Shown: positions 47,826 to 54,175 of the stretch, piece by piece | Layout: each line of letters opens with the position of its first letter | Numbering within the stretch: position 1 is the first letter of the stretch | NCBI GenBank assembly: GCA_950295325.1 | Contig: OX485804.1 | Coordinates: 7,006,001-7,070,000, forward strand | DNA: 64,000 nucleotides | Source of the DNA: Polytrichum commune | Taxonomy: Eukaryota > Streptophyta > Polytrichopsida > Polytrichales > Polytrichaceae | Reading direction: 5' to 3' | Position numbers and translations under genes: made by a program | Notes under the pieces: model-generated | What the model was told of the DNA's origin: nothing | What the model saw: only the letters and a program-made list of their open reading frames with translations | The model's database searches: none

Positions 47826-48160
47826 CAGCCAAACAAAGATGCTCTCAGGAGATGAAGGAGTCAAATTCAGTGACTGCAAAGAATATGTGACAACCCTGGC
47901 AGCAAATGGGCATGACAGAAAAAGGAGCTACATACAGGTGAAAGCAATCATCTTGCACCTTGGAGAGGGCTGGTGGCAAAAAAAGTCCTACTCCCAACCA
48001 ACAAACTTCCTGAGCATTCTGTTTCTTAAGGGATTTCAGCCAAACAGGATGAAATTAAACTCGGTGACTGCGAAGGATATGTGACAAACCTTGCAGTAAA
48101 TGGGCATGACAGAAAGGGGAGCTACATACCGGTAAAGGCAATCTTCACAAAACTTCACAA
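47826..48160 (+). repeat. Imperfect tandem duplication abutting the piggyBac left end
   Basis: A segment beginning CAGCCAAACAAAGATG at 47826 is repeated from 48037 (CAGCCAAACAGGATG). The shared core includes GTGACTGC, AAATGGGCATGACAGAAA and AGGAGCTACATACAGGTGAA or its close variant. The period is about 200 bp. The duplicate ends about 40 bp before the TTAA where the piggyBac inserted. An 81-codon frame runs through it but has no recognisable domain. Confidence 0.8.
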
Positions 48161-48905
48161 ACTCTTGCTATCATCTCTTTCCGACTCCTCTTCTCTTAAC
48201 CCCTAACTGCCCGAGCGACCATATATGGTCGACCAAAAATTTCGGCTCGTTTGGGTGTGGGCAGTTAAATTCCTTTGACCGTGGAAAAAAAATTTACGGG
48301 CAGTATAGGGAGGTAACTTGTGAGTTGAGGCTTTTTTGACAGAAAAAAATAAATATTTGATTTTAGAGAGGGCCTCAAAGGCATATATGTCATACTAGTA
48401 GAAGCGGGCAGCATTGGAGAACCAATAAGAAAATCCCTATCTCCAAGCGGGCAAGGAGAAAAAATAAATGTGGGTGCAATGGGTGTGGCTCTTGACAGAG
48501 TGAAAGATAATGGGCCCTTCATTGTAGGCAGCGGTACGTAGTTTGGCGCGGTAAAACATGAAATCGTAACCAATGGAATCACTCCATGCTTGCAACCTCC
48601 CAAATACAAGAATAGTGCACTGTAGCCACTGTGGCGGGGGGTAACGACCACCTCATCAATTCCAACCGCCTCTATTACTTTCACGCCGTGAAAGTAACAA
48701 TTTGACGGTGGTCACAACTTCTTCAAATGAAAAAACCCACAAAAATTTATGCCAACAGAACGTTGCAAAGTAGTCCACCTAACTAATCGGTAAGAATTTT
48801 CATAACATACACAGACATTGTGCAAGATAACGGGTAGTAATGTGTTGAATGCAAAAGACGTGTATATATGTTTGATGAATTCGAATTTGAATTCACAAAT
48901 CTCTA

Positions 48906-49634
48906 TTGCCATACAAATTTGTCACAATGGACGAAATTCCTAATCCTCCTATGTCTCTTTGCTACTTGGGAGGACCAGTAGACATAATCCGAAATTGGGT
49001 GAAGTTGCAAGGTGCAAGTGCACAACAAGAGAGAATCATACTAGCTGCATTGGATTCTAACTATCTTACAAAGTTGCCCAAGCCAAGGAAGTGGCGAAAT
49101 ATCGGCACTATCCCAAGGAATATAGCGTTTAGATCTAGGTACTATCAACAAGTAGCTCACATTTTGGGGTGGAAGGAGAGACATGTCCGAGGATTTTCGG
49201 ATGCTGTGAGAGACACATTGAGAACAGTGGTCTGGCCAGATGGTGGAGAGGCACAAGGAGACATGGCAACAGATTGTCCTCACGGAGTTGGAGGAAAGAG
49301 GAGCTTTGACATTGATGTTGCAAGTGAGCGATCTGGGATGGCCAAAGGATGTGAGTGCAAGAAGGAAGCTGCCCAAGTTAGCAATCAAGAGGGGCACATC
49401 CAAGACAACAACAAAGACAGGAGTCACTTACACAAAAGGTTGGTCGGAGGGAAGGAAGCGTGCGGGAGAGAGATTGAGGATTGCTGCAAAGAAGGCGAGC
49501 ATATCGATGGCGGAGAAGGCATCAACAACAACAAACGAGCAAGGACACAAGAGGAAGGCCCTGGAAGCAATAGGGCTGCCACCAACACGAAAGGGAGAAC
49601 GGGACGTGTGCTCCCAAAGTGGTTCCATACATGA
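48906..49634 (+). CDS. piggyBac-internal ORF A, N-terminal part of the accessory/leader protein
   Basis: This 242-codon frame starts MPYKFVTMDEIPNPPMSLC; the second Met at about residue 8 is an equally good start. It reads like real protein up to about residue 110 (for example RNWVKLQGASAQQERIILAA, GWKERHVRGFSDAVRDTL). Beyond about 49240 it becomes hydrophilic and poorly structured, while the +1 frame (ORF B) becomes protein-like. The natural reading is therefore ORF A then ORF B, joined by a frameshift or an unrecognised splice. No known domain is recognised. It may be the missing N-terminal part of the transposase or a second transposon protein. Confidence 0.55.
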   Translation: MPYKFVTMDEIPNPPMSLCYLGGPVDIIRNWVKLQGASAQQERIILAALDSNYLTKLPKPRKWRNIGTIPRNIAFRSRYYQQVAHILGWKERHVRGFSDAVRDTLRTVVWPDGGEAQGDMATDCPHGVGGKRSFDIDVASERSGMAKGCECKKEAAQVSNQEGHIQDNNKDRSHLHKRLVGGKEACGREIEDCCKEGEHIDGGEGINNNKRARTQEEGPGSNRAATNTKGRTGRVLPKWFHT

Positions 49635-51237
49635 CAGATTCACAGAGCTTATGGTAGAAGACCATGGAGTAGCAGTGAGGGTACCAAAGTACGTTGTGAA
49701 TGACTTAGAGCAATCGCAAAAGGATGAACAAGATTTAGATTGGATGTTAGGTGTTGTGCAAAGGAGCTACATTGATTTGCAGTCAAATGTTAGTATGTAT
49801 GATGTTTTATTTGCTGATGGAACTAGCAAATGTATTCCAAGTGGCTTCACGGAGCACATTTTGAGGCATGAAAACAATTCAATACAACCCATGAAAAATG
49901 TTGAGGCAACTTGTAATATTTCGAGTGATGATGAGTCTGAAGATGAAGAGGGCATTAGAGATGGAGACGACTGTTGGCCATGTGAATCACCTGATGACAT
50001 TCATGAGCAAACAGCAGAATGGGCGGGCTGGGCAGAAAGGCTAGAAAATCACGATGATTTGCAGCAACAAAATGGAACTAACTTGCAGCACAGCAAAGGA
50101 GCAAGGATGGTTGGAAGCAGTAGAATACCTTCTGTCACAGAGAAGTCCGAAGCACCGAGGAAGAATACTGCAGTAGCCTCACTGCTCCGAAAATCTGTGG
50201 GAGACGGCAATGGCTATCAGAAGGCAGGGCAGAAAAAAAAAATACCAAAATTGAGGCGGATCGGAGACGTACCTGGTCGAACAATGAGGCTCAGGTCGGC
50301 GACGATGAATGCTGCAGTGAAATCGCAGCACAGACTTCCAGCAATCTGCAATGGTTCTCACAAACAAAAACAAAAAACAGCACAAAAGGATGGGTGCGGG
50401 GACGTACCTGGTGATGTCCACCTGCAAGGTTTGGCTGAGCCGAGTGTGACCCATCTGCCGGAATGTGCCAAGACATTCACGAACGGCAACAATCAGCCAA
50501 AAAATCCAGTAAGAAGGGGTGGGTGCGGGGACGCACTTGCTGCAGCGGAATTTGATGTCGCAGCTGGGAGCAGTCGATGTTTGACGTCTCCGCACGGATC
50601 TCCGAATTCGGTGTCGCCGCTGGGACAGTCGGGGGACGCACCTGCTGCCGTGGGGTTCCTCGGAGCTGCAATCCTCCACAATCCTGCGCAGGTGGCCACA
50701 GGGGCAAGCTGCAATCCTCCACAGAGGCCACAGGGTGAAGCAATCACAGCAAAAAAAAAGATTTTCTGCAGACAGAAGGTGAATCGACCCTGTGAAGAGG
50801 GGTGCGTTCACTTACAGCAGCAAGGGGGGATCGACGACGTCCTCGGCCTGACTCCAGTAGCTGCGCCTCCACTGCAATCCGACGTTCCAATCCGGCGCAT
50901 CTGCAATCCAGCAAGGAGGGGTGAGATCGGCCGGCCAAGGGGGAAGCGCCCGGCAGGAGCTAGCGCTGGAGCTCGCAAGAAACTGAAGTCAACAAGGCAG
51001 GCAAGCATCGGGGAGAGTGATGGAAGGGAGACTACTGGAGGGAAGAGCAATGCCGCGTACAGCAGGGAGAGGGCGGGGATTGTGCTGCTCGGCGAAGCCA
51101 GCAGAGCACCAGTGCAGACAGCAGGGCACCACCCAGCAAGACATGCTGGTAACTTGTTTTTTTTGGTTTTTTTTGGAGCTATATTCATCTGTTTCTGTTT
51201 CTGGTGGAATATGAAGCACCATGTGAGAGTGCAGTGA
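49240..51237 (+). CDS. piggyBac-internal ORF B, long low-complexity frame
   Basis: This 665-codon frame is open from about 49210 in the +1 phase relative to ORF A. The first half looks proteinaceous (MVERHKETWQQIVLTELEER, KYVVNDLEQSQKDEQDLDWM, YDVLFADGTSKCIPSGFT) and contains an acidic patch (SSDDESEDEEGIRDGDD), a feature also common N-terminal to piggyBac transposase cores. From about 50200 onward it is Ala/Gly/Pro/Gln-rich and covers GC-rich imperfect repeats, ending in a hydrophobic phrase (LFFLVFFGAIFICFCFWW) that is probably untranslated or intronic. The real exon likely splices out before the transposase ORF; GTGAGA near 50921 and an acceptor near 51358 are candidates. Confidence 0.5.
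   Translation: MVERHKETWQQIVLTELEERGALTLMLQVSDLGWPKDVSARRKLPKLAIKRGTSKTTTKTGVTYTKGWSEGRKRAGERLRIAAKKASISMAEKASTTTNEQGHKRKALEAIGLPPTRKGERDVCSQSGSIHDRFTELMVEDHGVAVRVPKYVVNDLEQSQKDEQDLDWMLGVVQRSYIDLQSNVSMYDVLFADGTSKCIPSGFTEHILRHENNSIQPMKNVEATCNISSDDESEDEEGIRDGDDCWPCESPDDIHEQTAEWAGWAERLENHDDLQQQNGTNLQHSKGARMVGSSRIPSVTEKSEAPRKNTAVASLLRKSVGDGNGYQKAGQKKKIPKLRRIGDVPGRTMRLRSATMNAAVKSQHRLPAICNGSHKQKQKTAQKDGCGDVPGDVHLQGLAEPSVTHLPECAKTFTNGNNQPKNPVRRGGCGDALAAAEFDVAAGSSRCLTSPHGSPNSVSPLGQSGDAPAAVGFLGAAILHNPAQVATGASCNPPQRPQGEAITAKKKIFCRQKVNRPCEEGCVHLQQQGGIDDVLGLTPVAAPPLQSDVPIRRICNPARRGEIGRPRGKRPAGASAGARKKLKSTRQASIGESDGRETTGGKSNAAYSRERAGIVLLGEASRAPVQTAGHHPARHAGNLFFLVFFGAIFICFCFWWNMKHHVRVQ
50260..50655. repeat. 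GC-rich imperfect repeats with antisense splice-donor-like motifs
   Basis: The phrase GGGTGCGGGGACGTACCTGG or a variant occurs at about 50262, 50393, 50521 and 50631, spaced about 105-135 bp. On the minus strand each gives CAGGTACGTCC or CAGGTGCGTCC, which are near-consensus 5' splice sites, followed by pyrimidine-rich tracts. The composition is more GC-rich than the rest of the element. This could be a captured gene fragment or a minisatellite. Confidence 0.6.
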
Positions 51238-51319
51238 GCTTTGGGGCCAAGGTGTGCATTTTTTGGTTATTTTCTCTTTTCTAAATAAATGACTTGTTCA
51301 CAGCAGAGACTGAAACCAT

Positions 51320-53008
51320 ATGCTTATCAAAGTTTATGCTTTTGTGGTGTTGGCAGCATGTGCAAAAAAGGGTGAATTGTTGGATAATGAAGTTGTGGGT
51401 AGACAGAAGAGGGGGCATATAAAATTACCAACCTTGAAAGAAATTTACTGTGATGCATCGTGGCAAAAGACAGTCTCCACATTTGATCCGGCACCTGCTA
51501 AATTTAGGGGTCCGTCACCAGGCTTGCCAATCCCTTCTAATAAAATGCCCACGTTGTATACCTTGTTCCATAAGTTCTGGACTCCTCACACATTACGTAA
51601 AATATGTGCGGAGACAAATAGGTATGCATCGGAGATAAACCCACGTTCTAAATGCACTCCCAAAAAGTTACGGGGTGGGGATACGTGGTTTGCCTTACAC
51701 CCACCGGAGTTGAGGGCCTTTTTAGCAATTTCTTTATATATGGGGATAAAAATTGAGCCCAATGTAAGGTCTTATTGGAAAAAATCCTGTGATTTTTTGT
51801 GGTGCCCGGTTATATCCTCAATTATGACCCGGAATCGCTATGAACACATTATTCGTTGCTTACATGTGCATAATGACCATGCCGCAACTACGGATCGGTC
51901 AAGCGGGGACTTTGACAAATTGGTAAAATTACGGTGGCTATTGGATGAGATTAGGGATCGTTGTAAGGGCATGTGGAATTTAGGGAATAAGGTTACCGTA
52001 GACGAGATGATGGTACAATACAAGGGCAAGTATTGTCTCATCCGTCAATACATGCCTAAAAAGCCCACTAAGTGGGGAATCAAGGTATGGTGTCTTACGG
52101 ACTCTACATCGAGATACGTATGGACTTTCGACGTATATTGTGGGGCCAATAAGGGGGTTCCCGGAATCAAAGGGTCTAAGAAAGGGGAGGCTAAGCAAGG
52201 GGCAAATGTGGTACACGCATTATTGAAGGGGTTGGAGAATAGGGGCCACATAGTAGTTATGGATAACTTTTTTTCTTCAGTGCCCTTGTTTATGGAACTT
52301 TTGGAGAAGGGCACCTATGCGACGGGCACGGTTAGGGCCGACCGTATTGGCCTTCCAACCGCCCTCGCTAAAAAATCACTTTATGCAAAGTCCCCTCAAG
52401 GACATTTAGAGTGGAGGATGCATGCATCCAAAAAACTTAGTGCTATTGTATGGGTGGATAAAAAACCTGTCCTTGTGATGTCCACCGTGGCCCCACCAAT
52501 CCATGGGGTAGGGGAAGAATGTCCGGTGGTCTCACGGCGGGTGGGTTCCGTGCGTAAGGATGTTGAGACCTCCCCTATGCATTACCAATACACAACCTAT
52601 ATGCGGGGGGTAGATGTGGCGGACCAACTAAGGGGAGAATATTCCTCTCAAGTTCGGACTCATAAGTGGTGGCACAGGCTTTTTTTCTTTCTTTTGGACA
52701 CTACCGTGGTAAACACGTGGAAACTACATTGCGCACAGTCTTTGACTCTAGGAAACCGACCTTTGAGTCACAAATCTTTTCAATTACGCTTGGCCAAAGT
52801 TTTGGCCTCACACCACCTCCGGTCCCGCAAGTGCACTTCTCGGTACAATCGGCATGTCGGACTTCTTCATATGCCCATGTGGAGCCCACACCGCAAAGTT
52901 TGTTGTGAATGCCGCATACGGTGCCAAACTTATTGTCCTTGTTGCCTTGGGCATCATATGCATATTGGAGAATGTTGGGCGGCGGTGCACCGGCCCATTT
53001 TCGATTGA
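51320..53008 (+). CDS. piggyBac transposase (DDE_Tnp_1_7 core)
   Basis: This enzyme excises and inserts the element at TTAA by a DDD catalytic mechanism in the nucleus. The 562-aa ORF has the family's landmarks: an N-terminal WQKTVSTFDPAPAKFRGPSPG box, GDTWFALHPPELRAFLAI, the first catalytic Asp in KVTVDEMMVQYKGK (about D228), the second in IVVMDNFFSSVPL (D315), and the third in YMRGVDVADQLRGEY (D432, with D435 three residues on, as in piggyBac D447/D450). HKWWHRLFFFLLD follows. The C terminus (about 525-555) has a Cys/His-rich domain, CCECRIRCQTYCPCC with HHMHIGECW, resembling the piggyBac cysteine-rich DNA-binding domain. The ORF is uninterrupted, so the enzyme may be active. The first about 12 residues may be intronic, because a splice acceptor (TTGGCAG) lies near 51357. 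Confidence 0.93.
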   Translation: MLIKVYAFVVLAACAKKGELLDNEVVGRQKRGHIKLPTLKEIYCDASWQKTVSTFDPAPAKFRGPSPGLPIPSNKMPTLYTLFHKFWTPHTLRKICAETNRYASEINPRSKCTPKKLRGGDTWFALHPPELRAFLAISLYMGIKIEPNVRSYWKKSCDFLWCPVISSIMTRNRYEHIIRCLHVHNDHAATTDRSSGDFDKLVKLRWLLDEIRDRCKGMWNLGNKVTVDEMMVQYKGKYCLIRQYMPKKPTKWGIKVWCLTDSTSRYVWTFDVYCGANKGVPGIKGSKKGEAKQGANVVHALLKGLENRGHIVVMDNFFSSVPLFMELLEKGTYATGTVRADRIGLPTALAKKSLYAKSPQGHLEWRMHASKKLSAIVWVDKKPVLVMSTVAPPIHGVGEECPVVSRRVGSVRKDVETSPMHYQYTTYMRGVDVADQLRGEYSSQVRTHKWWHRLFFFLLDTTVVNTWKLHCAQSLTLGNRPLSHKSFQLRLAKVLASHHLRSRKCTSRYNRHVGLLHMPMWSPHRKVCCECRIRCQTYCPCCLGHHMHIGECWAAVHRPIFD

Positions 53009-53430
53009 AGGTAATGCTCATCAATAAGTTTTATTTTTTTTACATTTGTACCCTCAATATGCAAAAGGCAGCTAAAATGCCATTAGAAACAATGTTCATA
53101 TGTAAAAGTTAGGCATGTTTGAAAATATATGTAAAAACCACGAGGTGAAAGTGATTTTAGTGACATTCTAGGGGGCTGTGATTCCTTTTTGTTGGATTGT
53201 ACAACTGAGAACATGCACAAACATTGTAGCTACCGGTCAAAAAAAGTTGCACGCTAAAATAGTTGATTATGTAGAAGTTATGACCTATTGACTAATGTTG
53301 ATTATTGGGGCAGCACCTTGTATGGCGGGACCGGGAGCGGCGGGCTAAATTTTAGAATAGATAAGTACTTCATTTAGTGGATAGGCTCAATTGAGGTGGC
53401 AAGTAGGTGGCAATTAGGTGACGACTAGGT

Positions 53431-53557
53431 GGTAGGTTGGAGGAAGTACCTTGTTAGAGGGAAAAGGGAACCACCCATGATGTAGGCAATAGGAGGTAGG
53501 TTGGACAAGGTACCTTGTAGGCGGAGAGGGGTCCCACCCATGATGTTGGGAATGGGC
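53431..53557 (+). repeat. 63-bp imperfect tandem duplication in the piggyBac 3' region
   Basis: GGTAGGTTGGAGGAAGTACC at 53431 and GGTAGGTTGGACAAGGTACC at 53494 begin two units that share CCACCCATGATGT. The duplication lies in the non-coding 3' part of the transposon. Confidence 0.75.
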
Positions 53558-54175
53558 GGTGGTAGTTCTTCATTATTTCCCAAATGTTTTTGCTAATTGG
53601 ACCAATTTACTTATTTTTGACATCCACGGAGTTCCCGTATGTCATTTCTTTTGAGAATTGTTGCACTGGAAAGAGTAAAAAAATCCTGTTCTTTTCACCG
53701 TCAAATATTACTAATCACGACCATTGATGTGAAGCAATTTTCCATATGAAATTGTCAAGTGTTAAAAAAAACAAATGCGTTTCACCAATTGCAAGGAGGA
53801 GTGCGAATTAGATTTGGGTAGGTCTACATGCACACATAGGGTCATTGGATTCACATTTTTGTTCTCTTCAACATGATGGGGTTGTTCGTGTCACCTCTAA
53901 CTACCAAAAATACTTATGACCAATTTTAGCCAACATTGTGAGGAGGGGCAGCATACTAAAAAAAGATTACACACATTTATCTACATTGAATTTCACAACT
54001 ATTATGCAATCAAGGACTCAAAATTGGTGTACTTACTAATATACAAGTTCTAATCACATCTATACGGTTAGATTTTGGATCAAAGATCAATTCATGGCTT
54101 GGGGATTGTAGTAAAGACATGCACTATTTTATTAGAAAAAACGTCCATGGAGGGACTCGGGCATTTAGGGGTTAA

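Follow-up and report, generated by a model that had tools for sequence, protein, structure and literature searches.

An apparently intact piggyBac transposon in a moss chromosome and a conserved domain encoded upstream of its transposase

The stretch of DNA analyzed here (the window) comprises 64,000 nucleotides of the moss Polytrichum commune (GenBank assembly GCA_950295325.1, contig OX485804.1, positions 7,006,001 to 7,070,000 of the forward strand), and at positions 48196-54175 (5,980 bp) it carries a TTAA on both sides, inverted ends, and a DDD transposase. This locus is a complete piggyBac element, apparently intact, in a plant chromosome. The left TTAA target-site copy (48196-48199), recognized from the sequence and by repeat comparison, is followed by the left terminal inverted repeat CCCCTAACTGCCCGAG (48200-48215, plus strand), whose identity is backed by the same ends in four other intact copies; the right terminal inverted repeat (54156-54171, minus strand) is followed by the right TTAA copy (54172-54175). 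The original prediction, made from the DNA letters and their reading frames, had claimed inverted ends matching at 15 of 16 positions exactly at TTAA sites, and it holds: with the TTAA included as the outermost bases on each side, the 20-nt repeats (48196-48215 and 54156-54175) match at 19 of 20 positions (95% complementary). The end sequence is TTAACCCCTAACTGCCCGAG plus its inverted copy, and such short inverted ends starting with CC(C) are those of piggyBac elements. Directly inside the left end lies a palindrome, CGACCATATATGGTCG (48216-48231), with a near-palindrome at the equal place in a second family described below; it is a possible, putative binding site.

The element contains three long frames and does not have the compact form of ∼2 to 3.5 kb with a single open reading frame (ORF). 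ORF1 (48927-49634, plus strand) encodes 235 aa, of which residues ∼20 to 121 form a conserved extra domain without a Pfam match. The ORF2 frame (49240-50045, plus strand) stays open to 51237, is conserved between subfamilies to ∼50045, and includes an acidic stretch. A variable middle (50045-51220), probably an intron, differs among copies; capture of a host gene there was ruled out, as the middle matches element copies only. The catalytic part of the transposase is encoded by a stop-free 562-aa ORF (51320-53008, plus strand). Scans for RNA families matched none.

The 562-aa protein matches the Pfam family PF13843 (DDE_Tnp_1_7; E 2.5e-80) and, among PDB entries, piggyBat (9c0f) and a transposase (6x67) at 84 to 88 bits. 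D228 (52001-52003), D315 (52262-52264), and D432 (52613-52624, a segment that also includes D435; all on the plus strand) were placed by the PDB alignment and by an alignment of ten sequences picked from loci already fetched. The first three align to the DE, DN, and GVD motifs of 9c0f and 6x67, positions which we take to be the catalytic residues. All four aspartates, together with Cys 528, 531, 539, and 542 of the C-terminal domain (52901-53005, plus strand), are invariant in all ten aligned sequences, and by inspection this domain is Cys/His-rich. The earlier description of an intact 562-aa DDD transposase with a Cys/His-rich end was therefore correct as to the open frame, the Pfam family, and the conserved residues, but its gene model is probably incomplete, as discussed below.

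We searched the whole genome (407.8 Mb in 64 contigs, of which C1 to C7 measure 42-78 Mb) with the window transposase and obtained at least 83 match rows. The family names I (that of the window element), II, and III were coined in this analysis. Among the matches listed, five loci on four contigs, the window included, carry intact 562-aa frames at 98 to 100% amino acid identity. The four other copies measure 5,979 to 6,384 bp and have identical-type ends, a TTAA on both sides, and differing flanks; these copies were located by protein match, so their TTAAs are independent evidence of target-site duplication. TTAA-flanked copies with a near-identical transposase, of the kind which the original prediction had proposed to look for, thus number four besides the window; in the closest (L009), which occupies a different TTAA site, nine of 5,980 positions differ, eight by transitions and one by a gap, and two others (L010 and L011) are ∼98% identical to the window element outside the middle. 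Near-identical copies at different sites are what a recently active transposon leaves.

Older relatives are present as well, including seven decayed members of family I among the matches listed. Two elements, L012 (C1:11752800-11759800; frame intact) and L015 (C6:21416800-21423400; frame interrupted), are mosaics in which the right 2.9 kb are 99% window-like and the left 1.8 kb only ∼81% identical, which points to recombination between two subfamilies. The second subfamily (L016 to L020) shows mostly 77 to 83% DNA identity to the window element, with short pieces down to 71%, and stops interrupt all five members. With at most one mismatch allowed, the end pattern of family I gave 104 + 112 = 216 matches, whereas the reversed pattern used as a control gave 0 + 0, and by our own count 66 of the 82 exact matches listed have a G-type end. 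Eleven candidate short copies were fetched, all on C1: ten of 832 to 834 bp, mutually 96.6 to 99.8% identical, and one of 1,619 bp. They were chosen by a pattern that contains TTAA, so their TTAAs are present by selection and offer no independent test. The right part of one short copy is 95 to 96% identical to the second subfamily versus 79% to the window element; the ∼834-bp elements form a young group that arose from the second subfamily by internal deletion.

The main novelty of the locus, overlooked in the original prediction, is the conserved extra domain of ∼85 aa encoded upstream of the transposase on the same strand. Three protein searches with ORF1 of different families returned 34, 24, and 36 match rows. 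A script merged these into 48 ORF1 places, and merged all of the at least 83 rows of the family I query with 17 further rows into 72 transposase loci. Among the matches listed, ORF1 precedes the transposase on the same strand at 40 of the 72 loci, at a distance of up to 9 kb in 38 and of 14 and 23 kb in two; on the opposite strand it was found within 25 kb of none. It is present at 38 of the 40 loci whose transposase match spans at least 1.4 kb and at two of the 32 that span less. By family, ORF1 accompanies 10 of 12 family I loci, all 15 of family II, and all seven of family III, and in a further group (C2:2.25, C3:38.02, C5:39.59, and C7:39.30 Mb) it lies ∼1 kb upstream.

Six other ORF1 domains are 26 to 31% identical to that of the window element, and nine residues (W24, P51, P53, R69, L80, G81, W82, R85, and F90) are invariant in all seven. 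At E ≤ 10, Pfam matched none of seven proteins searched, five of which were ORF1 domains, and accordingly no Myb/SANT domain like that of a PIF/Harbinger ORF1 was found; a PDB search with one ORF1 domain of family II found nothing either. Between the window element and L012, nonsynonymous (dN) and synonymous (dS) divergence were 0.104 and 0.261 in the ORF1 core and 0.165 and 0.421 in the part covered by ORF2 only, indicating purifying selection on both. Matches to ORF1 that stand without a transposase include those at C4:2292815, C2:67233517, C6:43982776, C4:4064934, and C1:33680720; they may be solitary remains, deleted elements, or host genes. A 3.9-kb element at C6:37908946-37912869 has both family II ends and has kept ORF1, with no transposase match.

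How ORF1 relates to the transposase can be read most directly in family II. The ORF1 exons of this family remain similar up to a splice donor, which is CAG/GT in nine of the 11 loci printed, with one GC donor and one CAA/GT; the exact donor GCAG/GTNAGTC occurs in five. The transposase frame starts after an acceptor, YAG/GTGGA or GTGGG, in six of six. By our reading both sites are in phase 1, so that splicing from this donor would keep the transposase in frame, which makes the 562-aa ORF probably the last exon only. We consider that a single 562-aa gene model is probably incomplete, that the ATG at 51320 probably falls inside an intron, and that the gene very likely starts farther upstream. A candidate acceptor AG at 51355-51356 means that the first ORF codons may be intronic; a second intron would then run across the variable middle and end at 51356, and the acidic ORF2 region is likely to form the N-terminal part of the transposase. 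The best candidate introns in family I are 49351-49438 and 49351-49660.

In the window family, a spliced or a dual-coding arrangement is possible. Under the latter, ORF1 would be a separate accessory protein, not the N terminus of the transposase, and would overlap the ORF2 frame in true dual coding. Both family I frames are open over the 342-nt overlap in all six copies scored, which represent two lineages (L018 was dropped, its left part being nonhomologous there, and L010 and L011 were left out), in spite of 80 substitutions between the lineages; in a neutral simulation with 80 random substitutions, 5.2% of runs left frame 0 open, 4.5% left frame 1 open, and 0.2% left both. The ORF1 frame of family III likewise continues, overlapping another long frame, in three of three loci, with C termini that look similar by eye. 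However, the overlap changes as fast (80 of 342 positions) as 5' noncoding DNA (142 of 696), and family II has a donor and an in-phase acceptor instead. We therefore regard a separate accessory protein with dual coding as conceivable but the less probable arrangement, and fusion of ORF1 to the transposase by splicing as the one to work with.

Further piggyBac families occur in this genome at about 40% amino acid identity. The family II left end, TTAACCCTTAAA..., coincides with the start of homology in all seven loci examined (one pair aligns ∼10 nt further), and with up to two mismatches its pattern gave 25 + 24 matches against 3 + 0 in the control. Of 15 family II loci, 13 are enclosed by matching ends, 12 of them at 7.5 to 16.7 kb and one at 33 kb, and the remaining two loci have one end each. 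The locus with the 33-kb span (L014, at C7:6711000-6719000), in which frames resembling a Mutator-type transposase were seen by eye upstream of the transposase, probably contains a nested insertion. In family III, one locus (L063) has a TTAA-flanked end pair matching at 13 of 16 positions, and no such pair was found at L038, where the sequence ends early. L063 and L062 (C6:30.48 and 30.06 Mb), 420 kb apart, share a 5.5-kb stretch that is 99.5% identical and consists of part of a family III element plus flank.

Many diverged family II lineages are intact without close copies. An alternative reading is that some family II loci are host genes domesticated from piggyBac. Among eight catalytic regions compared by the Nei-Gojobori method, pairwise dN/dS was 0.05 to 0.11 at dS 0.47 to 1.57 (dS being near saturation, with one stop codon skipped in L065 and L035 shorter), nine of 13 full-length loci have a match free of stops, and no other locus exceeds 93% amino acid identity to the query, all of which is compatible with genes kept by the host. 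A domesticated gene is expected to have no functional transposon ends, whereas putative ends are present in family I, at 13 of the 15 loci of family II, and at one locus of family III; the TTAACCC-type left end stands at the start of homology in each of the seven loci examined, and four full-length loci contain one stop. Domestication was set aside once the left ends and the distant right ends had been found, and we hold it to be improbable for any of these loci.

The window element is inserted in repetitive DNA (window 47900-48146 and flanks): a genome search with its two flanks joined yielded 61 match rows, and the left flank contains a direct repeat pair that is 87% identical. Two of the sequences matched by the joined flanks, at C2:61196614-61197012 and near C5:3793000, are paralogous repeats without an insertion, and both continue through the insertion point, where they have small gaps; an intact TTAA stands at that point in neither. 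The search for empty sites suggested with the original prediction therefore succeeded in part, yielding two continuous paralogous sites but no allele and no intact single TTAA. As for the neighboring genes, which had been called as a receptor kinase and other plant genes, Pfam recognized adaptin-binding p34 (AAGAB) in one and malectin-like domains in two of nine flanking frames; the other six had no match, including the kinase-like frame at 54.7 kb. Because piggyBac is unusual in land plants, contamination or an assembly artifact had to be considered, but transposase loci (the 72 merged loci) lie on all seven large contigs, the genome holds hundreds of element ends, and the paralogous sites continue across the insertion point. 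The earlier view that the element is not a contaminant is upheld, and we judge the chance of contamination to be negligible.

We conclude with high confidence that this moss chromosome carries at the locus a complete cut-and-paste transposon of the piggyBac type, which was mobile recently and belongs to a long-resident lineage. By the known chemistry of piggyBac, its transposase would bind the ends, excise the element via hairpin intermediates, and reinsert it at TTAA. Judging from the anatomy of the element and the family II splice sites, the active protein would be longer than 562 aa, with the ORF1 domain and the acidic region spliced onto the catalytic exon; ORF1 probably aids recognition of the ends or of chromatin, and an unspliced ORF1-only product could serve as a regulator.

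The original prediction had left the choice between a resident plant lineage and a horizontal arrival, and we favor the former because of the divergent families, the decayed copies, the short derivatives, and the extra domain they have in common. Families I to III likely derive from one ancestor in this plant lineage, as they share the catalytic residues, ORF1, and TTAA ends starting with CCC (the last seen in families I and II and at one family III locus). A recent arrival from an animal, fungus, or alga, followed by amplification in the moss, would explain why copies of the youngest subfamily are almost identical, and piggyBac is patchy and thought to have been spread by horizontal transfer, according to the available part of PMC12732532. 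However, the same genome holds another subfamily, with decayed copies, whose left part is ∼80% identical, as well as more families at ∼40% amino acid identity with the ORF1 domain in common; the PDB relatives piggyBat and 6x67 score just 84 to 88 bits, and two scans of IMG/VR viral contigs confirmed no relative. We thus consider recent arrival quite unlikely, though not to the degree of contamination.

Several points weigh against our interpretation of a resident, mobile lineage with an upstream domain. Among the matches listed, 32 of the 72 transposase loci lack an ORF1 match (30 of these span less than 1.4 kb), and eight of the 48 ORF1 matches lack a downstream transposase match. What stands for empty sites are not alleles but paralogous repeats, which differ at many positions and contain gaps. 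ORF1 and ORF2 of family I overlap in different frames, and introns there are candidates only; splice sites are predicted from genomic sequence, and one genome is the basis from which we extrapolate how old the lineage is in plants.

The elements resemble the piggyBac superfamily (Trichoplusia ni piggyBac, piggyBat) in their TTAA target, CCC ends, DDD residues, Cys-rich C terminus, and DDE_Tnp_1_7 domain, and differ from known piggyBac in their size (∼6 kb here, 7.5-16.7 kb in family II), the extra upstream domain, the probable introns, and the plant host. DNA transposons with two genes or alternative splicing include the P element, PIF/Harbinger, and CACTA. A possible extra protein or splice-regulated short form would be a likeness to these, whereas Pfam recognized nothing in the present ORF1 at E ≤ 10 and the transposase is unrelated. 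For comparison, beetle piggyBac elements are given as 2.1 to 3.5 kb with one ORF of ∼500 to 725 aa in the available part of PMC12732532. The piggyBac superfamily itself has been recorded in land plants before: a table in PMC4438587 places it among superfamilies present in all groups studied, a repeat table of the C-fern has 1,230 PiggyBac entries totaling 122 kb (PMC6890710), and plants are named in a piggyBac list (PMC8086355). These share the label with our elements; the portions of those sources available give tables and mentions, and here there are elements, ends, gene structure, and recent movement. The available portions of PMC10905368 and PMC9499001 held nothing on native plant elements, and PMC10619864 was discarded as a source, the matching word being 'piggybacking'. 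In the open-licence literature, judged mostly by title and abstract, we found no description of moss piggyBac elements or of the ORF1 domain.

Apart from the transposons, the same genome yielded three LEAFY DNA-binding exons, one with the H/R form and the other two with the D/C form (as in 4bhk), at C1:40.57, C1:62.30, and C7:8.64 Mb, with a fourth SAM_LFY match at C7:14.03 Mb. A LEAFY exon scored 201 bits against 4bhk, presumably from Physcomitrella, and 181 bits against 2vy1 (PROTEIN LEAFY), presumably from Arabidopsis; we take the H/R form to be type I LEAFY and the D/C form type II. Both types together are recorded for mosses outside Bryopsida, including Polytrichum commune, and for one liverwort in the available part of PMC6588583. 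On the LEAFY genes, too, the host is probably a moss of this kind.

It is possible, if somewhat doubtful, that mosses keep a distinct piggyBac branch in which the new domain became obligatory for transposition and is made both fused by splicing and alone, the unspliced form acting as a built-in regulator, with many single-copy lineages intact together. How the superfamily adapts to plants would be seen in a recently mobile plant member that has ends of its own, short derivatives, and an additional domain. Taken from an insect, piggyBac is a main tool of genome engineering, and a moss element could supply a plant-native excision tool. With the finding, bryophyte genomes can also be used to test how old piggyBac is in land plants.

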